Shown here piece by piece: positions 2,009-28,606 of a stretch of 32,394 nucleotides of DNA. Where the stretch lies: positions 1 through 32,394 of IMG/VR virus record IMGVR_UViG_3300031857_000823. One strand, 5' to 3'. Under the pieces are notes generated by a model. It did not search any database, was not told where the DNA came from, and was given only the letters and a program-made list of their open reading frames with translations. Position 1 is the first letter of the stretch. Each line of letters opens with the position of its first letter. Both the position numbers and the translations under genes were made by a program. Origin of the DNA: a virus.

Positions 2009-5000
2009 CTTGATTCAATATGTATTTTGTAATGTATCTATTGATTGTACTTTTCCCTTTGTTCAATCCAAAATAAAAATGATACGGTGCACCAACAATG
2101 AAACTATTCTGTGTTCCACTTGGGAATTGTGGGTTATTTATACCATTAGATGAGTTAAATATATACCCTCTTCTACCACCATTAGTATCATTGAAATAAG
2201 GGGATATTGGTGAATTATCAAAACTTAAATCTTGGTATTTTTGACTATAAAACCCTCCGTTTGAAATATTTGTTGCCCAATCATTAGTATCCAGTCCAAA
2301 TATGGTATTACCACCAGCTAAATTCCATTTGTAGAATGGGACCTCTTGTGTTTTAGGATAACCAAAAGTATAACTCAACGATGAATTAAATGTTAATACC
2401 CCCGGTGAAACTACTTTCCTATCTATTGTATTTGATGTAAAAAATACACCCATAACAATATCTGAGTTGTTTGAGATATAGAGATCGTTATCATCGTAAG
2501 TATCGTCATCAAACCCCTCAACACCATATTCAGAGTTAATACTAAAAAGTTGTGCCAAATCACCATCAATTCTTTGTTCACTTCTTGAGAACATTTTATT
2601 AATTGAAGCATCCCCTAACCCCAAGGCTTGTCCCCAAAAGTTTGAATTAATCATTCTGGAAATAAAGAATAAAGAAAGTAAGTCTGACGTATCTTTAAAT
2701 GAGGTACTAAGAAGGGTATCTACATAATAACCTTCAAAATTTGGGTTTGTACAGATTTCTTTTGTAAATTCATCTTTCGGTCCCAAATCCATTACCGTTG
2801 TTGGAAAAAATATATTTCTTTCGTTCATACCTCCATAACCCGCCGGTTGTAGTGTTGGGTCTCCGAATGTGGCTCTTTTAGGTATTTGACCAATAAAATT
2901 TGTTCCGTCATAAGGTGTTGCTCTATAAAAAAAAGAATTTGTTGTTCCCTCAGTATAATAAATCGGTCCTTGTCCTGGTCTGTATGTACTATCATATGAA
3001 CCACAAAATAAATACTTTTTTGGTTGTCCAACAATATCAAAAATGGTTTGTTTTTTGAACGCAAACATATACAGTGTACCATTTACCCAATTGTTTTGAA
3101 ATACGTGAGAAAAAATACCCCTACAAGCACCAAAAACCAATCTAAATCTTGATTTCCACTCGGTAAGTAATTTAATATCTTTGATGATTGAAACAATGAG
3201 TGGGTCATCCACCAAATAATAACACCCACCTTTCATTCTCTTACCATCGGGGTTGGCGTCACACGGACTTAAAACTGTAAAATTAGTACCAGAACCATCA
3301 TAACAATCAAGAAGTGTCATGTTTTCACAGGTTAATGTAGCAAGAACAACATCACTAGTTTGACTTGGTGTGTCTCCCTGTGAATCTTGACTGTTACCAT
3401 TACTATCAGTTGAGTTTGATATATTATTTGGGATGTTTAAATCATTAACACCTTGTATTGTGTAGTATGTAAAGTTGGAATTTAAATGTAACGAGAATGA
3501 GTTATTACCATCAATTTCAGTACTATCTGATGTCGGTAACCTATCGGATCTAAACACTAGTAACTGACTATTGTTAATTTGTATATTAGATGGTGATTGA
3601 TTATGGTAGGCCGGTGAAAAAGTTCTAACAAAGTCTGAATTATTTAGTATTGATCCTTGTTGGGTGTTTGAAGCCATTAAAGAACCACCTTCAATATTAC
3701 CTTGGGTTAGAATATTATTAGTTTGATCAAATGTAATTGTATTTGGTCCCGTATTTAATGTACCAACAAACGTTGTGTCGGACAAAACACCATCTGGTGA
3801 AGTAAACACACCTAAAGTAAAAGTATCCGTATTATATGCTTTAAAGGTGGATTGTGTTTTATCTGTTGAATTATAATAATGTGGACTATTATTTGTAAAC
3901 GCACTAAACATTGTTTGGTTTACATTAAAACCGAATGGTTCATTATATAAATTACTTTGTAAGTTATTTGTTGTAATGTTATGTGTTTGTGGGGTTTTTT
4001 GGTCATTAAACCAGACACCCGAACCAGAGTTTGACCTTATCGGAATGTTTAAATAATACTCACCTTCAACAATCAACCCATTACCAAATGTCTTACCAAA
4101 TAAAGGTGATAAGTCGTATTTTATTGTTTGTTTTTCAGTGTACGGATCAACACCTCTAGTTAGAAATATAATTTCATACGTTTGGTAGTTTATGATTTGT
4201 TGGAGTGGGTATACGTCATAGGTACTAGTTGTAGGTAGACCAAAATCAAACTTTTGTTTTTTCTTAAACAAATACTTGTTAAGTAAACCACCAGATGGGG
4301 CTAAAAGTGTTTGATATTCTGAAACAGTACCACCAGTAATAACTTGAAAATACTCAATACCCGCGGTGTACTTATATGTTGAGGTATCACCAGTTACCCT
4401 AATATATATATTTGATGTTTGAGGTAATCCATTAACATCTATCCATGTTACTTGTTTTGGTACTAGGTTCGTACTAGTTTGTGTTGTACCTGTCAATACA
4501 TTTAAATTAGGATCTGTAATTGATGCTGGGTTTGTAAATGAAATTAAATCACCACTAGTGAACGCATTTAAAGTTCCGGGATCGGCAAATATTACTAATA
4601 CACTATCCTCAAACGGTTGGGATGGTGTTGAATTATTTATAGTGGTCCTAATCCGATTTTCACCATCAAAATATCTTTGTCTTAAATTAGCTAAATTCAT
4701 AGATTGTGTCAAAGTCACATCATAACCTAAACGTTTTTGTCCACCCACGGATGGAAACTCAGTGATTGGTGTTTTAATGAATTGACCAGACGGATATCCG
4801 GCGAGTACTTGTCTTATACCCTCATATGTTGCTTGTGGGTCACTTGAATTCACAGGTGGTGAGTAGTTATATGAATCAATAGTATTAATGTCACCCAACA
4901 AAATATTATTTTCAGATTCTATAGTTGTACTTAACGATTCACTTGTTTGATTTGTGCTAGGTGGTATGGTTGTTTCTTCACAAGGACAGGCCTCACAATC

Positions 5001-6770
5001 AGGAAAGGACATCATAGGTAGTGCAATTCTTTTGAATGGATTTTCGTCGGGTAGTGGTTTAATTGTTTTTTTATTACAACCACCTTTAGGTTTATTACCA
5101 CCACTAAGTGCTGATATCGCTTTACATATACCATAAATTACAACATTTATTAACCAAATCAAAAGATCAATTATTAATTTCAATAATGGCCATATAAAAG
5201 CCAATACGTGTGCAATGATTATAAGTTGATATAAAATTGGTGTCAAAAGAGTAATCAACATATTAAATAAGAAGAATAAGAAATCAAAGTTTCTTACACC
5301 GTCATTAACCGGAAACCTATTGTTTGTTGTTGTACATCTTCTATCGGTAATTTCTTTAATACCCAAGTGTCTACTTCTATTTGATCCCCATTTCCATCTA
5401 TCAATAAAACTGGTGATGGTATAAACTTTATTAAAATTAAATTCATAAAACTTATCTTCACAATTAATCGCTTCTTGAATCATTTGTGAACCTAATGTTG
5501 TTGTTAAGTCACCATAATCCACCCAGTCCAAACTAAACGCATATGAATATTTTTGAGCATTTAGATCAGTTGGTGAGTTTTGATTTGATAGGCTCCATCC
5601 CCATTCTTTTATGTTTGGGATTAAATAATCCGCTCTAAGTATTTGATTATTAATTCCATTCTCATTTTGATATTGAATTCTAAACCTATATTTTCCTTTT
5701 GTTGGTATGCCAACACTTGGGTCATTTGAGAGTACTTGTTCACCGAATTCATTTGTAATGACATAATCTAAATTCATCGGTACTTCTGTCAACCACGTTC
5801 CGTTTTCGTCAATAACTTTACCATTATCTGGTAAAGAAAATTGTTCAAGTACTGGTCTACCGTCCGAATCGTAAGCTATCGTTTGTCTTATTGCTAATAT
5901 TCTACCTTCAGACGACACTAAGTCACATAAGTTACCAGTGTCTTTTTTTGGTTTACAATTTGTTTTTAAAAAGTCCTCATCGGCATTTGAAAAAATGGAG
6001 CCCATAAATATGGCGTGAGGTTTTATCTCAATACCTAAATCTCTTAAATCAAAATCCACTCGTGTAATACCAACTTCACAAAGTTCTGTTTCACCCCAAA
6101 ATGAAGTGACGCTAACTTCTTTTTTTTGATTCACAATTTGTGGTAGTGAATCCAAATCGGTTGACGATTTAAACCTATTTCCGTTGAACTGGCCGGACCC
6201 ACCTCTACCTAAACTTATCAAATCTGAAGGTGAAAGTGAAAAACATCCGATGTTAGACAAATCAAGATCTAACATAACGACTTGTTGACCCAGAGGGACT
6301 CCTATAATCATAAAGTCACCACTCTCATTTGTTTTAACCGTGTATTTGTAGTATTTTTCATACACCTCTAAAACTTCCCTTCTGGTTAAAACATCTTCTC
6401 TATCGGGGAAGGTTCCGGTTGGTGTGTGACCTTGATAATCCTGTCTATAAGGTAATAAATTGTATCTATAACCGTCTTCATTTTTTTGATCAACTGTTTT
6501 ATATGGATATAATGTTGATATTACTGGGTCGTTCTCGTCTTCAGTTGTTAATGGAACAAAAACAGACACATTTGCATTTGGTATACCATAACCCCCATTT
6601 GTTATAACCCTTCCGGCGATAACACCATAGTCGGCACAAAATCTAGTATATACGTCATCTTGTCTTAACTTTAAGGAAAGAATTTCCAAAAAATCAAAGT
6701 CTTGATTAACATTAATTCGTATGTTTTTATCCTCACCGGGTGTTGTTCTTATTCTATAGGTTTTGGTCAT
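2001..6770 (-). CDS. Large (1589-aa) putative baseplate wedge protein with carboxypeptidase-regulatory-like domain and hydrophobic segment
   Basis: The second gene after gp6, at the position of T4 gene 7 (T4 gp7 about 1030 aa). Residues about 47-165 look like a carboxypeptidase-regulatory-like beta-sandwich: AGRVITNGGYGIPNANVSVF early on and GDFMIIGVPLGQQVVMLDL at the end. Residues about 493-552 form a strongly hydrophobic stretch long enough for two or three membrane helices (for example LLTPILYQLIIIAHVLAFIW), followed by a Lys/Gly-rich turn and a Cys cluster (CEACPCEE, about residue 593). A Cys-containing, apparently globular region lies in the last third. The ATG at 6770 follows a 76-nt leader with an A/T-rich element also seen before other genes. 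Wedge (gp7-like) identity is positional inference; the hydrophobic segment is seen directly and is unexpected for such a protein. Confidence 0.85.
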   Translation of the reverse strand: MTKTYRIRTTPGEDKNIRINVNQDFDFLEILSLKLRQDDVYTRFCADYGVIAGRVITNGGYGIPNANVSVFVPLTTEDENDPVISTLYPYKTVDQKNEDGYRYNLLPYRQDYQGHTPTGTFPDREDVLTRREVLEVYEKYYKYTVKTNESGDFMIIGVPLGQQVVMLDLDLSNIGCFSLSPSDLISLGRGGSGQFNGNRFKSSTDLDSLPQIVNQKKEVSVTSFWGETELCEVGITRVDFDLRDLGIEIKPHAIFMGSIFSNADEDFLKTNCKPKKDTGNLCDLVSSEGRILAIRQTIAYDSDGRPVLEQFSLPDNGKVIDENGTWLTEVPMNLDYVITNEFGEQVLSNDPSVGIPTKGKYRFRIQYQNENGINNQILRADYLIPNIKEWGWSLSNQNSPTDLNAQKYSYAFSLDWVDYGDLTTTLGSQMIQEAINCEDKFYEFNFNKVYTITSFIDRWKWGSNRSRHLGIKEITDRRCTTTNNRFPVNDGVRNFDFLFFLFNMLITLLTPILYQLIIIAHVLAFIWPLLKLIIDLLIWLINVVIYGICKAISALSGGNKPKGGCNKKTIKPLPDENPFKRIALPMMSFPDCEACPCEETTIPPSTNQTSESLSTTIESENNILLGDINTIDSYNYSPPVNSSDPQATYEGIRQVLAGYPSGQFIKTPITEFPSVGGQKRLGYDVTLTQSMNLANLRQRYFDGENRIRTTINNSTPSQPFEDSVLVIFADPGTLNAFTSGDLISFTNPASITDPNLNVLTGTTQTSTNLVPKQVTWIDVNGLPQTSNIYIRVTGDTSTYKYTAGIEYFQVITGGTVSEYQTLLAPSGGLLNKYLFKKKQKFDFGLPTTSTYDVYPLQQIINYQTYEIIFLTRGVDPYTEKQTIKYDLSPLFGKTFGNGLIVEGEYYLNIPIRSNSGSGVWFNDQKTPQTHNITTNNLQSNLYNEPFGFNVNQTMFSAFTNNSPHYYNSTDKTQSTFKAYNTDTFTLGVFTSPDGVLSDTTFVGTLNTGPNTITFDQTNNILTQGNIEGGSLMASNTQQGSILNNSDFVRTFSPAYHNQSPSNIQINNSQLLVFRSDRLPTSDSTEIDGNNSFSLHLNSNFTYYTIQGVNDLNIPNNISNSTDSNGNSQDSQGDTPSQTSDVVLATLTCENMTLLDCYDGSGTNFTVLSPCDANPDGKRMKGGCYYLVDDPLIVSIIKDIKLLTEWKSRFRLVFGACRGIFSHVFQNNWVNGTLYMFAFKKQTIFDIVGQPKKYLFCGSYDSTYRPGQGPIYYTEGTTNSFFYRATPYDGTNFIGQIPKRATFGDPTLQPAGYGGMNERNIFFPTTVMDLGPKDEFTKEICTNPNFEGYYVDTLLSTSFKDTSDLLSLFFISRMINSNFWGQALGLGDASINKMFSRSEQRIDGDLAQLFSINSEYGVEGFDDDTYDDNDLYISNNSDIVMGVFFTSNTIDRKVVSPGVLTFNSSLSYTFGYPKTQEVPFYKWNLAGGNTIFGLDTNDWATNISNGGFYSQKYQDLSFDNSPISPYFNDTNGGRRGYIFNSSNGINNPQFPSGTQNSFIVGAPYHFYFGLNKGKSTINRYITKYILNQDE

Positions 6771-12623: not shown

Positions 12624-15074
12624 TTAATTGTTTTCTGATTGTTGTTCTTTTAACTTCTTTTTTTCCAACAGTTCTTTAATTCTGTTCCTATTCTTTTCTT
12701 CTTTTTGTTCTTCGTGACCTAGAAACGTCACACTTTGTTCTGTATCAATTTCCAACATTCCGTTGTCAAACTTACAATTTTCAAACACAATACCATCTTT
12801 ACCAATTCTGGATTTTGTGATTGCAATTGTCGCCAAATTCATTTCTTTTTGTTGTAATGATTTTGCAACCGTAATAATGACGTGGGCAACTTGTGCTTTC
12901 TTAATAGATCCACCCATTTGATCAGTTGTTACAACATCAGATGAGATTGAACTTCTTGAACCTTGGGTGGCCGTCCATCCCGCAATATCAAGTTCATGAC
13001 ACATTGATTCAAAACCTCTCATTACTGAACCCTCACTTTTCCATTCGTCGCCCAAGTTTTTATCCGGAACAACACAATCAATATAATCCAAAATAAGCAA
13101 ATCAATCTTTGTTCCTTCGGCCATCATTTTTCTTATCTGAGTTTTAATCTGATTCATTGTTACCGTATCTGATGGTAATTTTTTCATAATCAACTTATTC
13201 TTTCTTGTTGATTGGATGTGTTTAACTTTTGCCATAACTTCCTCTCTATTTTCAGAAAGTTCGTCCGGATGAATTCCAGTCCAAAGTGTCATATGTTTTC
13301 TTTGAATAATTTTTGCATTGTCCTCAAAGAAAATCTGAAGTACATTATACCCCAAATTAAAGGCGTGATTGGCAATTTTTGTGGTGAAGGTCGTGTTATG
13401 TGTTAAAACATAATCTCTGGTTACATACAAGCAATCTGGGTTTGATACTTTAATACAAACCGCTTCTTCATCGTGTGTGTGACTTATTGACTTAACATAC
13501 TTTTGTTCAACATATTTTGTTCTTTTATAATACCTACTAACTTTTCTCATTAGTTTAAATGGTACAACATCATTAGCAAAGGAAATTGTAACATTATAAG
13601 TTAGTTGACCTTGTTTTTTCTCACCATTGATTCTATAAGTTGGTATTTTTGTTTTAACTCTAACAGTACCACCTAAAGATAATACAAGTTCTCTAACATC
13701 CTCACTAAGTTGTTTTGATATGGTTGTAAATTGAACCAATCCTTTTTTAGCTACGTACCCATCAGTGTCCATCAAACCGCGAAGTATTTCAATTCTGTTG
13801 TCCAATGAATTATACAAATAATCTTTTGGTATGAATTTGTTGTTTGATTTCATTCCCTTCAAACCATATGTTTCCAATTTTTTGGCAACATCACTTTTCA
13901 ATCTAATTACCTTGATTGTTTTTTCATTGGTTTTGGTATATTCTGTAAAGGCGGTATGTTCTGACAAATGTGAAATATTTTCAAACAACTCATCATCTTT
14001 TGTTGAAATAATGGGGTTACTTTGATTTAAATAACCATCACCCAACAATAACCCCATAAGGTATGGATCAATAGTTACTTCTTTTTGTTCAAACTCAATT
14101 GGGGCAACCACTGGAAGTCTATAATTGTATCTACCTCTTTTTTTGATGTCATTTACCATATCCAAGGTTTTAACAACTTTGTATCCAAAATTAGGTGAAT
14201 AAGTGTTTTTTCCTTTAACTCTTACCTTTCTGGTTCTCATATTAAGTGTGTTTACACTCCACAAATGTTCAGCGTCACAATTGGAAAATGTCCCATCACT
14301 AAACTCAACTTTATAGATCGGTCTGATACCTTGGGGGTACACCCCCAATACATATTGTTCTTTACCATCGGAACCAATAACTTTATCACCCACTTTTAGA
14401 TCGCCCATTTTGGTCCAACCTTTTGGTGTTAAAACCGGTTCAGAAATTGGATTAGCTTTTCCCGTTCCGGTAGGGGCCAAAAATACCCCAATTTCACCCT
14501 TAGCCAAACCACCCTTTAAAAGGTTATCAATACCTGGAATTCCAAGTGGAATTGGGTGTCTAAAATCATCATCCAAAACCTCATCCAAGTTAAAAAATAC
14601 ATCCATTGTACCTTTGTCAACTTCACCAACTTGAAGGGCCCCTCTGACCATTTCTTCCAGTTTATCATAACTTTCAAAATCTCCCTTATCAATTATTGAT
14701 TGGGCTTTGGTCATAACTTTTTGAAGTTCTTGTTGTTTACAGAATTTAAGTGATTTTTCTTGAACAAAAATGGATCCTTCATCTGATACATTCTTTACTT
14801 GGTCCAAGGTGTCCAAAACACTTTTTTGGGCCATCGGTGAACTAATTTCAGATTTGGTTAATTGTTCCAGAGTGTCAAACGTTGGTGTATGTTCATACTT
14901 TGAATAATATTCCTTAATCATCTGACAAATGATTTTGAAATATTGGTTATCAAAATAATTTGGTTCAATAACTTCAATGATGGAATTGGAAAAATCCTTA
15001 TAAATTATAATGTTATTTAATAGTTGAATCTGAAAGGTGTTTCCTAAGTATCCGAAGTTTTTTTTGTCTGACAT
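12624..15074 (-). CDS. gp41: Replicative DNA helicase (DnaB/T4 gp41-like) interrupted by an intein
   Basis: 816 aa as translated; removing a 354-aa intein leaves 462 aa, close to T4 gp41 (475). A helical N-terminal domain (residues 1 to about 165) precedes a RecA-fold hexameric helicase core. Walker A is split: APTGTGK ends at K206 and continues after the intein as T561-TFTTK. A catalytic Glu follows in FFEDN (E584), Walker B is LLILDYID (D663), and a DnaB-type motif follows in [13 protein letters not shown]. The enzyme would unwind DNA 5'-3' ahead of the phage replisome. The C-terminus is a Lys/Glu-rich coil. The 36-nt leader carries an AT-rich element (CTATATTTATTTTTA) immediately after the previous stop. 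Confidence 0.95.
13395..14456 (-). other. Class 3-like intein with LAGLIDADG endonuclease in the helicase Walker A
   Basis: 354 aa (residues 207-560 of the host protein) between Lys and Thr of the P-loop. It starts with Ala ([14 protein letters not shown]), not Cys or Ser, and ends VLTHN before Thr+1. The class 3 triplet is present: Trp at block B (AEHLW, W272), Cys at block F ([11 protein letters not shown]540), and Thr before the His-Asn end (LTHN). In class 3 inteins the block F Cys replaces residue 1 as first nucleophile. Two LAGLIDADG motifs with acidic residues kept, [11 protein letters not shown] (about 340-350) and [11 protein letters not shown] (about 430-440), suggest a potentially active homing endonuclease. 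Confidence 0.92.
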
Positions 15075-15567: not shown

Positions 15568-16575
15568 TTACTTTTTTGTTTTAAATTTTGTTTTTTCTTT
15601 TCTTGTTAGTTTTAAAAATGGTTTTAAAAAATAAACCCACTGATCATCTCCCTTGGGTAGATATTTAAATAATCCGTCCTCCATCATCATCCGAATTAAG
15701 TTTTTATACCCTCTTCCGTCAGGATCCAATGACTCAGAATAATATAATTTAACCAATTCCTTTCCTTCTTCACTTATTAGTGGTTCGGACAAATCCACTA
15801 TCTTTTTGTTTACTTCAAAAAACTCATCACCAAATATCCCCTCCTTTGTTCGCCCAGTTAAAAGGTTCTTTAATGTGGTGTTGTCCTTTTGTTCTTTCAG
15901 TAAATCCTCACCTCTTTTTAAAATATCGGAAAAACTTATTTCTTTTTCAAGTATCTCAGGAAATAACTTTACAAAAGTTTTTTCTCCAAGATAATAAATC
16001 CCATTAATATTGTCGGATTTGTCACCAGAAATAATTTTAAAAGTTTTTACATTGTAGTGTGGAATCTCAATGGAGTTCATTTTGATTGTATCCCCCTTTT
16101 TATAATACTTCTTGGTGTTTGGTGAGTAAATGGTCACATCTTCCGAAATAAGTTGTGTAAGGTCTCTATCCGCACTGAAAATCGTTTTTGATTCATCCTT
16201 TGCAATTTTACAATAATAGGCAATTAAATCATCGGCTTCCGAATTTTCAAACTCAACTTGTCTAACGAACATTTCTTCCAAATATTGTTTAACTCGTTGT
16301 TTTTGTTTGTTGTAAGATAACTCCAGATTTTCATCCTCAGATCTTTTTCTATTTAACTTATAGTTCGGATATACCATTCGTCTTTGTGATGAACTTGTTT
16401 CACCATCCCAAAACACAACGGTTTTGTTGAAGTTATCTTCATCAATGAACCTACGTAAGGTATTTAAAAAGTGCCAAATACCACCAACGTGTTCAACACC
16501 ATTGAAATATCCTTTAACACCATAAAAACCAATCGTTAAAAGGTTGTCACCGTCAACCAATAAGGTTTTAGTCAT
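15568..16575 (-). CDS. rnh: 5'-3' exonuclease / T4 RNase H-like (FEN family)
   Basis: 335 aa (T4 Rnh 305). A metal-dependent flap/5'-3' nuclease that removes RNA primers from lagging-strand fragments. The acidic active-site positions are visible: D8 and D10 (LLVDGDN), D57 (VVFWDG), E113, D115 and D116 (EADDLI), D136 and D138 (SADRDLTQL), and the helix-hairpin-type motif with D185 and D188 (IISGDKSDNINGI). The basic stretch RRMVYPNYKLNRKR is the family's DNA-binding arch. A T4 Rnh-like C-terminal module (GLFKYLP to the Lys-rich end) is present. The start overlaps the methyltransferase stop by 8 nt (ATGACTAA). Confidence 0.93.
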   Translation of the reverse strand: MTKTLLVDGDNLLTIGFYGVKGYFNGVEHVGGIWHFLNTLRRFIDEDNFNKTVVFWDGETSSSQRRMVYPNYKLNRKRSEDENLELSYNKQKQRVKQYLEEMFVRQVEFENSEADDLIAYYCKIAKDESKTIFSADRDLTQLISEDVTIYSPNTKKYYKKGDTIKMNSIEIPHYNVKTFKIISGDKSDNINGIYYLGEKTFVKLFPEILEKEISFSDILKRGEDLLKEQKDNTTLKNLLTGRTKEGIFGDEFFEVNKKIVDLSEPLISEEGKELVKLYYSESLDPDGRGYKNLIRMMMEDGLFKYLPKGDDQWVYFLKPFLKLTRKEKTKFKTKK

Positions 16576-18649
16576 TGATTATTTCATTAAGGGGGTTTGA
16601 CAATACTGGTTTGTTTTTTGAAATATAATCTGAGAAGAACTCAGAAAAAATAGCTTCCATTACCGGGACACAAATTGAGTTTCCGGCCAAAGATACGTGG
16701 GCGGTGTTTGATAACGATGTTGATAGTAACAAATCAATGTCTTCTTCTTTAACACCCATAAACCGATAACCTTCCCTTGCGGTGATTGTTCTTACACGAC
16801 CGTCTTCTGTCATAATTTGGGGTGAACCACTTGTCGTTAAAGTTGGGGAACATCCGTCAACCGAATAAATCCTTCTGGCTTGATCATAACTTATGTCATC
16901 CCTTCTTGCGATTAATCTACAAATGGTATCTTTTTTTGGTTGATGAGGTGTGTAATTACAATCAACAATTAAGTCGGGATTAAAATTTTCATCAATAAAT
17001 GAACGCATCGGAACTCTCGGTTTTTTGTGATTGTTTACATTTTCCATTTTTTGTTTGACCTCGTCTGAGTCTCCGTGTAATACTGAAATCATAAAAACAC
17101 GTTCTCTATTTTGGGGACAACCAAAATCAGCTCCGTTTAAAAGTTTCCAATAAGATGTGTAACCTAGACCTCGTAAGTAATAGATGTGTTTTTGAAAGTT
17201 ATCAATGTGATTTTTGGAAACAAGGTTTTTGACATTTTCCATAAGTAGATACTTCGGTCTGTTAGTTGAAAGGATTCTCTCAACATCAAACAATAATCCA
17301 CTTCTTGTCCCTTCTTTTATCCCTTGTTGATTTCCAGAAATTGAAATATCTTGACAATTATGGGCAATACAACCATTAGCGGTAAAAGAGTGATCCTCTT
17401 CAACTTCAATATCATAAACAAAATCACTAGTCAATGTATTTTCAACATCTATCACTTTAGACCAAACATATCCGTTATCATAAAATATTTTATTTCTTTT
17501 TATTTCCCCTATTTTGAATCTTATTTCGTATGATGGTCTTTGATTAACGACTCTATTTTCAATGATACAAGTTGGGGGTCTTTCTGATCTATAAATGGAA
17601 TATGGTACCCGATACACTTTACTAACGCATTGTGCAATACCATAAATTAACTCCCTACTAGTACTTGAAATACTATTAGTATTGTCTTTTTTAACGTTCC
17701 CATCAGCAGAAAAATATCCCTCAATAAAAGACTCCAATAAATTCGTAGGTAAATCTAAAACAGTATTATTTAGATGTTTACCGTGTGCGTATTTTCCAAA
17801 CTGAGACACAAATAAACCTATTTCTTTTTTTGGTAAATGTATCTTATATGTTGACCCATCTCTAACAACTGTTGCGTTAAATTGTAATTTTTCTAATCTT
17901 TCACTAATTTCTTTAAGTTCTTTGTCATTTCTGTTTGTACAACAAATTATTATACCTCCTTGGTGTCTTAACCAACCATCACCAATGTATCTTCCAATTA
18001 CCCACCAAAAATCTTTATTATCCATATAACTAGATAATTCATTTTTGTGTCTTGTTTTTCTACCATCTTTCCACTTAAAACTAATACCATCCCATTTAGG
18101 AATAATACTATTTTGATTAATAGCAACCCCAAGATAGTCATTACTTGTTAAATCTTTACACTCTTTCCAGTGTGGTTCTGTTATATTATTTTTATCACCG
18201 TCTATCTTAGTTCTAACATAAAATCTATGATTTTCAGTTGTTTTTAACTCATTAAATATAGGTGATTTTATTTTCCATATTTCTTTTTTTCCTTGTTCAA
18301 ATTTATTTGTAACTTTTTTGTATGTGTTAGTATGTGTTAAAACTAAATCATTAATTTCAACATCTATAATATTTTTGTGTCCAGTACTAGTTAAAACAAG
18401 TGTATCCTTAGTAAAACATGGGAAGGAGTATGTTAATAAATCACATTCTGGGAATTTTGTTTCATCAATTTTTTTAATATCACCCAAATTACCATTTGTC
18501 GTTTTATGTAAAACGTCATAACATTCATTGGCTGGTCTGAAATTATCACAATTAGAAACAACTTCATAATTAACACCTAAATATTTAAGTGCTAGCTCCT
18601 GTGTTCCGTAACCGGAAAATAATGATATTACTTTTAACTTTTTGTCCAT
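16568..18649 (-). CDS. DNA (cytosine-5) methyltransferase interrupted by an intein
   Basis: 693 aa as translated, 339 aa after intein removal, which is normal for a small C5 methyltransferase. Motifs in order: I (ISLFSGYGTQELAL, SAM binding, residues about 8-21); IV (YSFP, then CQDIS after the intein, catalytic Cys C432); VI (LLMENVKNL); VIII (CPQNRERVF); a target-recognition region; IX (RRIYSVDGCSPTLTTSG); X (AGNSICVPVMEAIF). It transfers a methyl group from SAM to cytosine C5 in a specific site, probably to shield phage DNA from host restriction or to regulate it. No partner restriction enzyme is present in the window. Its AT-rich leader carries a 15-bp element repeated upstream of the neighbouring small gene. 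Confidence 0.95.
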   Translation of the reverse strand: MDKKLKVISLFSGYGTQELALKYLGVNYEVVSNCDNFRPANECYDVLHKTTNGNLGDIKKIDETKFPECDLLTYSFPCFTKDTLVLTSTGHKNIIDVEINDLVLTHTNTYKKVTNKFEQGKKEIWKIKSPIFNELKTTENHRFYVRTKIDGDKNNITEPHWKECKDLTSNDYLGVAINQNSIIPKWDGISFKWKDGRKTRHKNELSSYMDNKDFWWVIGRYIGDGWLRHQGGIIICCTNRNDKELKEISERLEKLQFNATVVRDGSTYKIHLPKKEIGLFVSQFGKYAHGKHLNNTVLDLPTNLLESFIEGYFSADGNVKKDNTNSISSTSRELIYGIAQCVSKVYRVPYSIYRSERPPTCIIENRVVNQRPSYEIRFKIGEIKRNKIFYDNGYVWSKVIDVENTLTSDFVYDIEVEEDHSFTANGCIAHNCQDISISGNQQGIKEGTRSGLLFDVERILSTNRPKYLLMENVKNLVSKNHIDNFQKHIYYLRGLGYTSYWKLLNGADFGCPQNRERVFMISVLHGDSDEVKQKMENVNNHKKPRVPMRSFIDENFNPDLIVDCNYTPHQPKKDTICRLIARRDDISYDQARRIYSVDGCSPTLTTSGSPQIMTEDGRVRTITAREGYRFMGVKEEDIDLLLSTSLSNTAHVSLAGNSICVPVMEAIFSEFFSDYISKNKPVLSNPLNEIIND
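17357..18418 (-). other. Class 1 intein with LAGLIDADG endonuclease in the methyltransferase catalytic motif
   Basis: 354 aa (residues 78-431 of the host protein). It begins with Cys (CFTKDTLVLTSTGHKNIIDV), has the block B TxxH motif (TTENHRFYV), block F (FVYDIEVEEDHSF) and ends IAHN before Cys+1, so all canonical splicing residues are present. LAGLIDADG-type motifs are WVIGRYIGDGWL (about 216-227) and FIEGYFSADGNV (about 306-317), both with the acidic residue kept. Insertion is exactly between Pro and Cys of the PCQ motif, so the +1 residue is the methyltransferase nucleophile. Confidence 0.95.
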
Positions 18650-22063: not shown

Positions 22064-25000
22064 TTAATTGAAAAACTTCTTAAACGCGGTCTCGTATTTT
22101 TTCATATATGATAAATAAGCGTCATAAATGTTTTTATTTTGTGGTTTTATTTTTTCATCGTACCTTTGTTTGAACTCAATATACTGTTTAGGTAATGTTG
22201 TGTAAAAACCGGTACCTCCACCATCTTTTATATACCACGTCTGATCCCAGAACAACGTAAATACTGTATATGCTTGAGCATATTTTTTGGCTTGTGTTAA
22301 CTCAGTACTATTATTCACCCATGTATTAATATAATCAACGTATTGTTGTGTAACGCCAGCGTAGAAGTCTAAGGAATCTTGATAACTATTAAAATTAAAA
22401 TACGGGTACGGTGTTGTAATAATAGTTGTAGTCGCACAAACCTTTCCAGTCACTAGTTGTAATATAGAGTCTGTATAATCATTAAATGCTCCACTACCAT
22501 ATAAATTGTAATTAAATGATGTTATGACATTCTTATCAATTGAATTAAGTGGTTGTGTTTTAACAATACCATAGTATAACGGTTTTAAAACAGCATCTAT
22601 TGATGAATTTGAAACTAATTCAAATAATTCATTTTCAGTTATTTGTGTGGTTTTTAGGTCAACATATGGTAACGTATTGTATTTTTCAAGTTCAAATTTT
22701 TGACACTCTGGTTCACTACCTTTAATGGCTCCAGGAGTTTTTGGTGAAATAGTTTCAGATAAATTTGTTACTACTGGTGTTTCCGATGTTTTAAGGGTTT
22801 GTATTATCAAATCTTTATAATACTTAACATAATTTTTTTCTACAGCTTCAAGTAAACTATTAGGTTTAGGTAAAGTATATAGTGGCATCCTAACCCCTTT
22901 AAATTGTGTATCAAATTTACCAGGACTAATACTATGATTGACTTCCATAATCCAATACGGACCATAAAATAATGGGACGTGTCTTAAATTAAAATACATC
23001 GTAGGTTGGATCATAGCATCACCCATACAATCAATTGTACAGGTATATGATCTAGTTTTATAAATACTATATAATGATACCGTTTGTTGAGCCACTTTGT
23101 TACCAGAAGCAGATTCACCAAGTTGTGTTATTAATTTGTTAGACTCTGCCGTATTTTTTTTCTCTGACATATCAAGTTGGACACTTTTGAATATACTTTG
23201 GTTTTGGGTTCCGTAATCAACTGAAAAACCAACAACTCTATTGACTTTGGAAAAATCGGTCTCAGGCCCATACGATGTACTTATAGGGTTGTCATATTTT
23301 CTCAAGTCAAACGCATCATCCCTAAATTTAACGAACTTCGCTTCACTTGCGACATGTTCCGATGGTTTACCAACATATACACATAAAAACTTAGGTCGTG
23401 AGTCCATATAATCCACATCTAAATAGGTTCCGAACATTGAATTTGGTATTTCAACAGGTATCGGAGTATTTTGTCTCACCGCTTCTTGAATCCCATAAAA
23501 ATTAACGTATGCTGGCATAGCAAAAAATATGAAATTATTTTTTTCTAGTATTTTACTAACAAGGTCTAAGTAATTTTTATTTGGGTCTGTTAAAAAACTT
23601 TCTAAATCACTTACTGATATTGTAAACTGATCACCAATATCCCTATTTGCTCTATCAAAAAATAAGAAATCTTCAAAAATCGTTTTGTTTTTAAAATCAC
23701 TTCCGGCAATCCACTTATCGTTCATTGTCTTTAATGTCGTATAATATTCCAACTTAACAACGTTCCCAGATGTGGTACTATTAACCACATTTGTTTTAAC
23801 CTTAACTTCTTCTAAATTTTTATTTAAAAAAGATATTATTTCATTTAACACATAACTATTAAAAGTATTTTGTTCAACAACAAAACTATTAATTAATTGA
23901 ATAAATTTAATTTTGTTAAAGGTACTATCTTTTAATTTTTCTTTTGCATATAATCTTATAAGTGGGTATAATGTTTCAATACTTGAAACACTAAACTCTA
24001 TGTCGTTGTCAATAAAAAATGAAGTTATTGCCGAACCATTATTTGTGTATTTTATCCCTGTTTGATCAAAATCACCTATGTATTTTTTAAGTGTTTTCCA
24101 TTCTAAACCATTTGCAGCTTGACTCAATAATAAAGCATTAGGACCTGTCAAAACACCGTCACCTGGTAAGGTTCCACTAATATATTTTGGTAATGGAGAA
24201 AAACTAATAGGTTTAAAATTTGGATTACTACTAAAATAGTTAAAGGTTTTTCTATTGAAGTTTCCTGGATTTCCCATTTTCAAAACACAATCAAAATTTA
24301 AAAGTTCAACAACTTTAGCCATAAAATTTTTGGTTTGTGCTTCGGCTAATAATTTTCCATCCAAAATTTCTTGGTTTGTTAATGTGACTGAATTTTTTGG
24401 TAATAAATAAAGAGATTCTATTTGGTACAATAATTTTTTCTGCCCAACATTTTTTACTTTACCCGGTGTATCTGTTGTTGCTTGTGTTTGTTCCCCAAAC
24501 AAAACCATATCAGATATCACATCTTTTGGGTTACAAAAATTTAAAAACAACTTTTCAAACTCATCCAATATTTTTGGTTCAAACACCGCAAAAATTTCAT
24601 CAATTTTTGAATAAGTGGATTGACTATCTTTAAGTTCAAACGGTGTTTGTGGTGTATTATCGGTATAAATAGTTTTTAAATATTCATTATAATTCGGTTT
24701 TTTTATCAAACTATTATCAAAATAACCAAAGTTTGAAACACCCCACAATGACCTTACCGACCCATTATACAGTGCATTATTATTAAATACTTCTTTTGTG
24801 ATTTTATCCAAATCATTAAAACACTCGTATTCCGCTTGGTTAATATTTAAACCACCCATACTAGGTACCAAAAGATAATTGTCAGTATCGCCATTTGGTG
24901 TTTTAAAAAATTGATAATAATTTTTAATTGTAAGTTGTCTTATTGGATCTGTTAAATCAAACCCAGGTAAAAAAGTTCTTGTGTAACTGTTTGAGACAAC

Positions 25001-28000
25001 TAAACCATTTTCTACACTTTCATTCTGAAAATTCGTTACGGATGGGTTTTGTAATATGTCAAGGTCTGTTTTGTAAAAACACCTAAAAACATCATTAATC
25101 ACTTTTGGATAAAACCCCATTGTAATAATATCATTTGTATTTGTCGTGTTTGGTACTAAAGTTGATGATTGTAATACGATGTTACCCACCCAATTTCCTG
25201 AATAACTGGTAGTTATGTTATTTGTAATTGGATCGTAGTTTGTTGTATAGTCAAAGTCTTTCCAGATATCATCTAAAATGTCAATCCCTTCATCAATATA
25301 TTTTTTATATCTGTGCCAAATTGAACCATATTTTAAAACCCAAACATATGGTAATTGATGGATAGATGAGAATTTATTGAAGGTTGCTGCTAAATAATCC
25401 AAATCGGTGGGTTCCAAACCATTTTCGGTTTTTTTAATCTTTTCTTTTGTTGTGATAAGTGGTAATGAATTAAGATATAAATAACCTAAACTAACGTAAG
25501 GGTTTTGATTATTTGTTTTTTCTAGTTCAACACCTTTTTGTAGTGCATTAATAAAATATGGTGTATTTAATAACGACGTTGTTTGAATACTTGTTACATT
25601 CCCAGAATAAGAAGGACCATAATTTACAAATGATTCTGTAAAATACTGATCTTTTTGTGTTCTCGTTGTAAAAAAACTTTTTAATGAAAAACGAGAAGTA
25701 ACAGGTAAATTAGTTGTTTGATCCGCAATATATGATTGATTGTAATTTGTGAAACCAAATTTATTCACAAATAAATTAATATTATTTAATGTTTCAGTTT
25801 GATTAAGTCTAGCGATTGTTTTTTTATCATTTAAATATGAAAATGTTTGTGTTTTGTAAAAATCTTGTGTACTTAAAAAACTATCACCCTTTTCTAAATT
25901 ATTTTTTAACCAGTTAAGATTATTAAATGGGTAAGGATCTAGAACATATTGTTGTTCTGTACTAGTACTATTTAAATAAGTTTTAAATTTATCAATCAAT
26001 TGGATGTTACCACCAACTGAGAGTGACACACCATTTAGGGTATCAATACTATAAATTTTATTGTACTCGTTAAAATAATTTTTAATATAACCCGTATTAT
26101 ATTCTGAGTTAGTATAATTTGTCCAGAATTCACCTGTACCTTCTGTTGATATTTTTTTCAAGTATTCCAAATACTGATTGTATGTTGGTTTGAAATTTTT
26201 TAATATATTTGTCAAAGTATAACTTGGTGAATTAGTTAAACTATTTTTAATGTTTTCAGCATCAATATCCGCTAAGATTTTATCAATTTGACTTTCTTTA
26301 TATTTTCCTCTTTCAATGTTTGAGTAGTGTGTAGCCAAATATGTTCTTTCAAAAATTTCATACAAAAAGTTCACTTCAGTTTTATTCAAAAATGGTGTGT
26401 CGTTGAATGGAAATTCAATTGGGTTTACTGACATCAACTCAGTATTACTTTGCGGGTTGTTTGTACTTTGTGGTACAGTAGGTGGGCTTTTTTGAAGTGA
26501 AGCGTTAATGAATTCCTCAGTAAAGGCTATTTCTGGCCATATTGTATTATTGTAACCTTGTGTTACACTTAATGAATTGGCATCACCCGGATATTTAATT
26601 GTGTATAATTCAGTACCATCTTGTTGTCTTTCTTTCTCAAAATATTGTGGCCATGGATAAACCGTATTTTCGTTGTTTAACTGGAAACTCCCGTTAACCA
26701 CACCCAATGAGTCAACACCTACGTTTTGTTTTTGTGGCGGTAATATTGAATTTAATCTTGTTGGGTTTTTTCTTTGGTTCCAAGCATTTGTATGTACATC
26801 TTCCATCATCCTATAAAAACCATCAAGTCCGGCAAATAAAACGGCAAATACATTTCTAATTGTTGGTTGAAACCCTAAACCACCGTCACTGTCAACTATC
26901 ATTTCGGACAACGCGGTAGTTAGTGCTTGTTCTATACTGTTTCTTTTTGTAGTTAAGTCTGAGTTCATTTTTTGAACTAAGTCTAAAAACGAATCGGTTT
27001 TAAAACTGTTAACAACATTTGGTATTTCACCAAAAGTGTAATATATAGGTAGTGTTTGTTCTATTTCTTTTTTTGAATTAATGATTGTTTGTGTCGTAAC
27101 ATTAAAACTCTTAAATTCCAAAATAAATTTTTGAAGTTCCTCATCACTTGGGGTTCTACCAAAATTTATTTCGTATGTTGTTTTAAAATCATCATTTGAA
27201 ATTACGTTATAGTCAATTTCTTTTAACAAATCATCAAATTTAACTTTTACGTCAATTTTACCAGACTGTGTGTTTTGTTTGTTTTTAGAATTTTCATTTT
27301 TTGTGGAACTTGGTAATATGTACGTACCACTTTCACCAAAACTTGGGTTTTGTTTTAATTTTTGTACTAATTCATCAAATTTACTTTTAGTCCTATTTCT
27401 AGCTTCTTCTTTTTTTGTATCTTCCAAATCATTTGAATATGGGTAATAAATTACACCGTCATACACTAACCTTCTTCCCGTGTCCAAAAAATCATTTATT
27501 GAATTTACATAAATTGATTGTCTCAAGTCATTCAAAGTTGTTTGATACGTATTAATATCATTTATTACGTTAAAATCACCCTGTTTGATTTTATCTTGAA
27601 TGGATTGTTCGTACTTATTTACCCTATAAATAAACTCCTCCATTGTAATTTCAGGAAAGGTTTTATCTATTAATTTTTTTTCTTTATATACCGAATAAAC
27701 TTCTCTTAATTTTTGAAGTCCAACAGTATCATTTTCAATTGATAGTTGTGTTTTATTATTACCAGTCTGTGTTGAAGATGATGTATTACCTTGTTTTTGG
27801 ACTTGAGTTGTAAACATTTTTGGGGAATGTTTAGCGAATGATAAAATACTATCGGCAAGTATCGCACTATTTCTACCCATTAATTTTAATGTAATATCAA
27901 AATTACCGGTTCCTGGGTCAAACTTAGCATTAAATGAAAGAAGTGTTAATTGATATCTTATAGCTTTACCGTAATAACCTTTTAGTGTTAAATAAAACGT

Positions 28001-28606
28001 TGGGTATGGTAAGTTAAAAAAAACTGAATAAATTGAGTTGTCACCTTGTTCAAACAAAGCACGACCTCTAACGTCAGTCAATAACATATCAACTGTTGGT
28101 ACACCAATTGATGAAATTTTTACTGTAATATTTTTAATCCCTAGGTTTTGGGTATCTTCATAATTTAAAACTTTAGTTTTCGTTTTACTAATACCATTTT
28201 CAACTACTGAATATTGTTGATTTTGATTGGTTCCTTGTCCTTGTCTTGAACCTCTCCCTGTAAAATCATCGGACCAACTGGTATCAAAATAATTTTTTCC
28301 TTTTGGTTTTAAAAAATTAATATTCAAATCCTCATCGTTTGATGATAGAGAGGCGATTGAAGTATTATTAACCGGTGTATCAAAACTATCACCTACTGCT
28401 AATTTAGTTCTTGGGATTATTTTGGTTTCAAGGTTTGCATACATAACAAGATTTTCTTGCTGGACAAACCTATCTTCAATAGTACCACCACCATTTACTA
28501 CTTTATTTGGGTCAATTAGTATAATATTTTCATAGTCCGCTTCAACATACAAACGGTTCTCTAAATTATATATCTGTCTAAATTTTGTTGGATCATTAAC
28601 GGCCAT
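22064..28606 (-). CDS. Giant (2180-aa) putative baseplate hub/tail structural protein
   Basis: A single uninterrupted frame covering about one fifth of the window. The N-terminal region is conserved-looking: ENLVMYANLETKIIPRTKLA (about 50-70), then a beta-rich domain with MLLTDVRGRALFEQGDNSIY and LTLKGYYGKAIRYQLTLLSF (about 175-245). A very long Asn/Tyr/Thr-rich middle follows. Around residues 1850-1910 a hub-like segment (CMGDAMIQPTMYFNLRHVPL, FYGPYWIMEVNHSISPGKFD) resembles the beta-barrel part of gp27/gpD-type hub proteins, where ligand or needle docks. No membrane segment. The ATG overlaps the end of the gp53-like gene by 11 nt. Hub assignment is inference; a tape-measure role is less likely because long helical repeats are absent. 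Confidence 0.85.
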   Translation of the reverse strand: MAVNDPTKFRQIYNLENRLYVEADYENIILIDPNKVVNGGGTIEDRFVQQENLVMYANLETKIIPRTKLAVGDSFDTPVNNTSIASLSSNDEDLNINFLKPKGKNYFDTSWSDDFTGRGSRQGQGTNQNQQYSVVENGISKTKTKVLNYEDTQNLGIKNITVKISSIGVPTVDMLLTDVRGRALFEQGDNSIYSVFFNLPYPTFYLTLKGYYGKAIRYQLTLLSFNAKFDPGTGNFDITLKLMGRNSAILADSILSFAKHSPKMFTTQVQKQGNTSSSTQTGNNKTQLSIENDTVGLQKLREVYSVYKEKKLIDKTFPEITMEEFIYRVNKYEQSIQDKIKQGDFNVINDINTYQTTLNDLRQSIYVNSINDFLDTGRRLVYDGVIYYPYSNDLEDTKKEEARNRTKSKFDELVQKLKQNPSFGESGTYILPSSTKNENSKNKQNTQSGKIDVKVKFDDLLKEIDYNVISNDDFKTTYEINFGRTPSDEELQKFILEFKSFNVTTQTIINSKKEIEQTLPIYYTFGEIPNVVNSFKTDSFLDLVQKMNSDLTTKRNSIEQALTTALSEMIVDSDGGLGFQPTIRNVFAVLFAGLDGFYRMMEDVHTNAWNQRKNPTRLNSILPPQKQNVGVDSLGVVNGSFQLNNENTVYPWPQYFEKERQQDGTELYTIKYPGDANSLSVTQGYNNTIWPEIAFTEEFINASLQKSPPTVPQSTNNPQSNTELMSVNPIEFPFNDTPFLNKTEVNFLYEIFERTYLATHYSNIERGKYKESQIDKILADIDAENIKNSLTNSPSYTLTNILKNFKPTYNQYLEYLKKISTEGTGEFWTNYTNSEYNTGYIKNYFNEYNKIYSIDTLNGVSLSVGGNIQLIDKFKTYLNSTSTEQQYVLDPYPFNNLNWLKNNLEKGDSFLSTQDFYKTQTFSYLNDKKTIARLNQTETLNNINLFVNKFGFTNYNQSYIADQTTNLPVTSRFSLKSFFTTRTQKDQYFTESFVNYGPSYSGNVTSIQTTSLLNTPYFINALQKGVELEKTNNQNPYVSLGYLYLNSLPLITTKEKIKKTENGLEPTDLDYLAATFNKFSSIHQLPYVWVLKYGSIWHRYKKYIDEGIDILDDIWKDFDYTTNYDPITNNITTSYSGNWVGNIVLQSSTLVPNTTNTNDIITMGFYPKVINDVFRCFYKTDLDILQNPSVTNFQNESVENGLVVSNSYTRTFLPGFDLTDPIRQLTIKNYYQFFKTPNGDTDNYLLVPSMGGLNINQAEYECFNDLDKITKEVFNNNALYNGSVRSLWGVSNFGYFDNSLIKKPNYNEYLKTIYTDNTPQTPFELKDSQSTYSKIDEIFAVFEPKILDEFEKLFLNFCNPKDVISDMVLFGEQTQATTDTPGKVKNVGQKKLLYQIESLYLLPKNSVTLTNQEILDGKLLAEAQTKNFMAKVVELLNFDCVLKMGNPGNFNRKTFNYFSSNPNFKPISFSPLPKYISGTLPGDGVLTGPNALLLSQAANGLEWKTLKKYIGDFDQTGIKYTNNGSAITSFFIDNDIEFSVSSIETLYPLIRLYAKEKLKDSTFNKIKFIQLINSFVVEQNTFNSYVLNEIISFLNKNLEEVKVKTNVVNSTTSGNVVKLEYYTTLKTMNDKWIAGSDFKNKTIFEDFLFFDRANRDIGDQFTISVSDLESFLTDPNKNYLDLVSKILEKNNFIFFAMPAYVNFYGIQEAVRQNTPIPVEIPNSMFGTYLDVDYMDSRPKFLCVYVGKPSEHVASEAKFVKFRDDAFDLRKYDNPISTSYGPETDFSKVNRVVGFSVDYGTQNQSIFKSVQLDMSEKKNTAESNKLITQLGESASGNKVAQQTVSLYSIYKTRSYTCTIDCMGDAMIQPTMYFNLRHVPLFYGPYWIMEVNHSISPGKFDTQFKGVRMPLYTLPKPNSLLEAVEKNYVKYYKDLIIQTLKTSETPVVTNLSETISPKTPGAIKGSEPECQKFELEKYNTLPYVDLKTTQITENELFELVSNSSIDAVLKPLYYGIVKTQPLNSIDKNVITSFNYNLYGSGAFNDYTDSILQLVTGKVCATTTIITTPYPYFNFNSYQDSLDFYAGVTQQYVDYINTWVNNSTELTQAKKYAQAYTVFTLFWDQTWYIKDGGGTGFYTTLPKQYIEFKQRYDEKIKPQNKNIYDAYLSYMKKYETAFKKFFN

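Follow-up and report, generated by a model that had tools for sequence, protein, structure and literature searches.

A long apolar helix, possibly membrane-interacting, in an unannotated baseplate-region protein of uncultivated contractile-tailed phages

Gene context and distribution of protein X

The window, a virus record of 32.4 kb analysed over its whole length, carries its large genes on the minus strand, where a gp25-like gene is followed by a gp6/Baseplate_J-like gene and then by the open reading frame of a 1589-residue protein, here named X (Table 1). That X is a wedge protein is something we infer from gene order only, and its location in the virion is likewise presumed. The order is widely kept: a gp6 homologue lies upstream of X in 155 of 160 related loci, less than 600 bp away in 142, and both gp6 and gp25 homologues are found upstream in 153/160. 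On the other side, a homologue of protein Y adjoins X even in two short relatives of 728–745 residues (L149:2813-5110 and L151:7989-10184), which are without the helix insertion described below. No gp25 or gp6 was detectable within ~8 kb in L151, so that the X–Y pair may also occur outside the wedge cluster.

Table 1. Coordinates of protein X, its features and its gene neighbours (window positions unless a locus is named)
Feature	Position	Strand	Remark
Protein X, 1589 aa	2001..6770	-	gp7/Cis12 gene position; unannotated family
X residues 1-470	5361..6770	-	conserved N-terminal part; Ig/CarboxypepD_reg-like beta domains
X residues 494-555	5106..5291	-	transmembrane-grade hydrophobic run; AlphaFold2 helix 497-555 = 5106-5282
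X H521	5208..5210	-	near-invariant histidine, mid-helix; 128/148 aligned sequences
X C437	5460..5462	-	conserved in main clade
X C479	5334..5336	-	conserved in main clade, shortly before helix
X C592-x2-C595-x-C597	4980..4997	-	within [YF]PDCEACPC motif, after helix
X residues 1148-1256	3003..3329	-	second conserved Cys cluster (1148, 1156, 1170, 1183, 1216, 1256)
gp6/Baseplate_J-like wedge protein, 612 aa	6847..8685	-	
gp25-like baseplate wedge protein, 154 aa	8687..9151	-	
Protein Y, 575 aa	281..2008	-	conserved downstream partner of X
Small MxC(x)xC protein genes (examples)	L148:7579-7989; L150:7733-7996; L174:7757-8002; L160:7588-7989		

A scan of IMG/VR with the single sequence of X returned 68 loci, and three alignment scans gave at least 590, at least 523 and at least 551 confirmed X-family stretches. 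Members are typically 1600–2600 residues long and lie on contigs of up to 322 kb, a size indicating that some come from jumbo phages. No relative was found by tblastn among the 50,697 deposited phage records of INPHARED with four different members as queries, Pfam and PHROG searches with X produced no match, and no solved-structure relative was identified in the PDB by sequence. The one significant match in BFVD is itself an uncharacterized member of the family, from Myoviridae sp. ctPuP5. As far as these searches reach the family is unannotated, and no description of it was found; X points to a gene family that is common in public viromes and probably structural. Five matches on bacterially binned contigs (a Prochlorococcus single-cell genome and MAGs of Bacteroidota, Cytophagales, Mycoplasmatota and Wolfebacteria) hint at hosts, misbinning being possible. 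Freshwater Bacteroidetes myoviruses have been published (PMC9723584) and are a plausible group for the phages carrying X; from the literature on similar freshwater phages and two of the MAG matches, Bacteroidota may be the hosts. Two contigs carry X as a pair of overlapping frames (L044:3903-6388; L061:7968-12448), owing to a frameshift in sequencing or to genuine disruption of the gene.

Elsewhere in the window, a DnaB-like helicase (12624-15074) contains an internal insert matching intein-bearing models, and a cytosine-5 methyltransferase (16568-18649) shows the C-terminal splicing region of an intein at its residues 410–432, each a probable intein. A 2180-residue protein of the same cluster (22064-28606) has no Pfam or PHROG match.

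Hydrophobicity, conservation and predicted structure of the segment

Hydropathy was measured with 19-residue Kyte-Doolittle windows (mean >1.6) and Wimley-White octanol sums, using standard published scale values. A preliminary description of the sequence had reported a hydrophobic stretch of about 60 residues in the 1589-residue protein, and this stretch is real: residues 494–555 include 44 windows above the Kyte-Doolittle threshold, with a maximum of 2.47 at residue 516, and the octanol sum reaches its minimum of −15.7 at residue 497, so that the run passes transmembrane thresholds on both scales. The best 62-residue mean of X is 1.89, compared with an average of 0.62 and a maximum of 1.41 in shuffles of the protein (n = 2000). 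Every other gene in the window has between zero and two windows >1.6, the NrdB-like protein having two, and among the ~1235 other ORFs of at least 300 residues in the family loci none has 20 or more hydrophobic windows, the sole match being the frame-split member L044. The run is mostly apolar, with the polar residues Asn503, Thr507, Thr510, His521, Lys531, Asp535 and Asn542 sharing one helical face. The charged, Cys-rich sequence said to flank it, CEACPCEE, exists at residues 592–599 but is ~37 residues past the run rather than adjoining it. The flanks of 190 members show no positive-inside bias: the C-terminal flank is positive in 88 members and negative in 76, the N-terminal flank positive in 51 and negative in 87.

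Conservation was assessed on 151 non-identical, 3′-complete family ORFs, and a tree was built for 131 representatives from the columns of X residues 1–470, outside the segment. A hydrophobic segment at residues 450–600 is present in 148/151 complete members, the exceptions being the short relatives L149 (745 residues) and L151 (728 residues) and one 132-residue fragment; among the representatives it is present in 128/131, where the third exception, besides the short relatives, is the incomplete 643-residue frame of L152. The segment is therefore absent only from fragments and from short relatives without the entire insertion, and the preliminary concern that it might be missing from all homologues is answered by its presence in nearly all of this set. 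In L149 the region around residue 470 joins that around residue 1200 directly, by inspection, which indicates that the helix of X lies in an insertion. On the tree, two state changes are enough to account for presence of the segment, fewer than for the PxCxxC or CxxCxC motifs. Between members the segment ranges in span from 25 to 148 residues (median 71) with hydrophobicity maintained; weaker, charge-bearing versions are found in some clades (L219, L220 and L198). Pro487 is found in 148/148 aligned sequences, alongside the near-invariant His521. Over 43 independent pairs dN/dS is 0.146 in the segment, as against 0.063 in residues 1–470; by this measure the segment is under purifying selection. 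Its near-universal retention by hundreds of relatives marks it as a real, selected feature.

An AlphaFold2 model of X residues 1–622, calculated from a 148-sequence alignment, has a mean pLDDT of 84 and a pTM of 0.73; an earlier model from 32 sequences had a pLDDT of 48 and gave weak PDB matches only. In the better model residues 497–555 are predicted to form one unbroken helix (DSSP; pLDDT ~90) of 59 residues and ~88 Å, with prolines at positions 511 and 528. The modelled monomer contains no other long helix and no helical bundle in which this one could be buried. The ordinary buried bundle raised beforehand as a test of the segment is thus not seen in the monomer, packing of the lone helix against other virion proteins being possible. 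A helical hairpin pinned by cysteines was considered and rejected, since the model has one continuous helix instead. A Foldseek search gave weak Ig-like and pilin matches with low TM-scores for the beta domains, and pneumolysin-type matches of low probability.

The polar residues form a stripe along the helix, with a peak at 100° (p = 0.002 in shuffles) and a family mean peak of 102° over residues 497–532. The residues of the stripe are mostly small or uncharged, and the fraction of Asp, Glu, Lys, Arg, Gln and Asn over residues 497–530 is 0.06 in ~70 effective sequences, as compared with 0.32–0.46 in five control helices of X; consequently, no face of the helix appears solvent-exposed, and the segment looks buried on all sides, by lipid or by protein. 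The hydrophobic columns are generally better conserved than those of the stripe, His521 excepted, and the stripe together with this near-invariant histidine suggests specific packing.

In the main clade the helix is bracketed by Cys437, Cys479 and the C592-x2-C595-x-C597 motif. An attractive reading of this pattern is a putative metal site that would close the helix at its base. The five cysteines occur together in 143/192 rows, with only one to three independent contrasts on the tree, and Cys/His co-occurrence was for this reason set aside as proof of a single metal site.

At 27 loci of a distant clade a small protein of ~77–164 residues is encoded directly upstream of X. It has an MxC(x)xC start and one hydrophobic span of ~40 residues, with a positive C-flank in 22/27, and is by sequence a predicted membrane protein; a PHROGs scan of two examples revealed no clear family. 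In this clade X is without His521 and mostly without the PxCxxC motif, and the small gene is absent from all 148 tested members bearing His521. A membrane-protein gene lying between gp6 and X raises the likelihood of a membrane link, gene order being no proof.

Membrane contact or burial of the helix

The segment probably either contacts a membrane or is deeply buried in the tail. Of the single explanations membrane insertion ranks first, with burial in the virion a strong rival and membrane contact somewhat favoured; the contact, the time of insertion and the function of X are what we infer. Our leading, though tentative, proposal is that X is a peripheral baseplate protein with a membrane-interacting apolar helix, which is first shielded and then engages lipid of the target envelope. 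X would be a large protein encoded at the position of gp7, Cis12 or gpI in other contractile systems, and the apolar helix without a charged face, lying between the N-terminal beta domains and the remainder of the protein, would act on the membrane. Most likely the helix would be shielded in the assembled baseplate; upon opening of the baseplate it would engage the lipid of the target cell envelope, and X would hold the wedge on the membrane during penetration by the tube. The sequence features are compatible with such insertion into the host envelope. A wider proposal, possible but held with more reserve, is of a large uncultivated contractile-phage group, in part with contigs of jumbo size, that has a membrane-inserting baseplate: several X helices would enter the host envelope on firing, the baseplate would thereby serve as a membrane anchor itself, and the small Cys-motif protein would assist or partly replace them in the sister clade.

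Membrane contact would account for the variation in length at constant hydrophobicity, for the missing charged face and for the small membrane-protein neighbour. It is favoured by the span of 25–148 residues, as lipid tolerates a change in length better than a fixed protein interface does, by a transmembrane-grade hydrophobicity that is unique in the window and retained in 148/151 members, and by the lone helix of the modelled monomer, which offers no other long helix for burial. It is disfavoured by the length of the predicted helix, by the polar stripe with its histidine, by flanks without positive-inside bias, by the charge-bearing versions of the segment in L219, L220 and L198, and by T4 gp7 and its relatives, whose conserved transmembrane-grade stretch belongs to a soluble particle. 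The rival reading, in which the helix packs against copies of itself in a homo-oligomer, or else against adjacent wedge proteins, without touching lipid at any stage, is a serious one that we nevertheless hold to be rather doubtful. It remains strong because the helix exceeds one bilayer crossing and its polar stripe is patterned: the single long helix of the model, the helical periodicity of the stripe and the mostly better conservation of the hydrophobic columns (His521 excepted) would all suit a protein interface, and T4 gp7 is a precedent for transmembrane-grade sequence within a baseplate protein. However, no other protein in the window has a matching apolar segment with which the helix could pair, a length of 25–148 residues fits a fixed interface poorly, no charged face is seen across 34 residues in ~70 effective sequences, and the T4 and Mu tail proteins examined have only 0–2 hydrophobic windows each, apart from gp7 with nine.

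The preliminary description had also raised an anchor for assembly at the inner membrane. In such a scheme X would sit in the producing cell's inner membrane, where it would nucleate assembly of the baseplate, the virion leaving later, perhaps after cleavage. Baseplates of contractile injection systems (CIS) do dock on membranes via a gp7-type extension (PMC8894136; PMC12237407), and in one clade a small membrane protein is encoded just upstream of X, but we consider this unlikely: X has no positive-inside signature, and the whole virion would need to pull several apolar helices out of the membrane. Insertion at the time of infection is accordingly preferred to an assembly anchor, given the missing signature and the need for the virion to be released, and the length of the helix, together with the missing signature, disfavours a classical anchor in general. 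It is less probable still that X is a membrane-bound assembly factor from the tail operon and not a virion protein; in favour of such a role is the lack of sequence kinship to known wedge proteins, whereas a length of 1600–2600 residues, Ig-like beta domains and the gp25–gp6–X order at 153/160 loci suit a structural protein.

Comparison with other contractile systems

Contractile-phage baseplates are regarded as soluble machinery that exerts pressure on the envelope via fibres, and the preliminary description had held that wedge proteins are not expected to carry a stretch of this kind. This expectation is too strong, and wrong for T4 gp7, the 1032-residue wedge initiator (L297:5061-8159; AF158101), which has a transmembrane-grade stretch at residues 879–907 (RFVHPVGFGFIAITLLTMFI) with nine windows >1.6 and a maximum of 2.07. 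The stretch is conserved among relatives of T4 gp7, and the annotation in GenBank AF158101 reads ‘C-terminus is predicted integral membrane domain’. A wedge protein with a single apolar stretch is therefore not unprecedented; what is unusual in X is the extent of the stretch. In T4 gp7 it is short and close to the C terminus, whereas in X it covers 44 windows and lies in an insertion after residue 470. For both proteins the gene comes immediately after gp6 within a contractile-tail cluster. Homology of X to T4 gp7 was considered and rejected, as the profile comparison was negative (hhalign gave a probability of 0.4% with E 0.16 across 26 columns), PHROG and Pfam yielded no match, and the two share gene position only; X is for this reason termed a gp7-position protein and not gp7.

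Some tape-measure and ejection proteins of phages carry membrane-active segments. These are virion proteins regarded as assisting the passage of DNA through the host membrane, the tape measure protein of TP901-1 being one example (PMC5099701). X differs from tape-measure proteins in its wedge gene position and its beta domains, and its placement is not tape-measure-like.

Baseplates of type VI secretion systems (T6SS) are membrane-docked. In the thylakoid-anchored tCIS, an extension of Cis12 contacts the membrane, and a putative transmembrane helix is present in the fibre protein Cis13 (PMC8894136); together the two provide a precedent that favours membrane contact by X. No transmembrane domain is predicted in Cis12 itself, which has a putative amphipathic helix instead (PMC8894136), and the CIS of Streptomyces rely on a separate membrane protein, CisA (PMC12237407). 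The systems with Cis12, Afp12 or Alg12 and that of X share a gp7-like position beside gp25- and gp6-like proteins. In tCIS the transmembrane helix is in Cis13, whereas that of X is in the gp7-position protein of a phage, and the likeness consists of gene position and an apolar helix. If the proposal is correct, what becomes of the baseplate at the membrane is open to testing, and an apolar helix at the wedge position would bring phages into direct contact with lipid, in a manner comparable to the membrane-docked baseplates of T6SS and tCIS.
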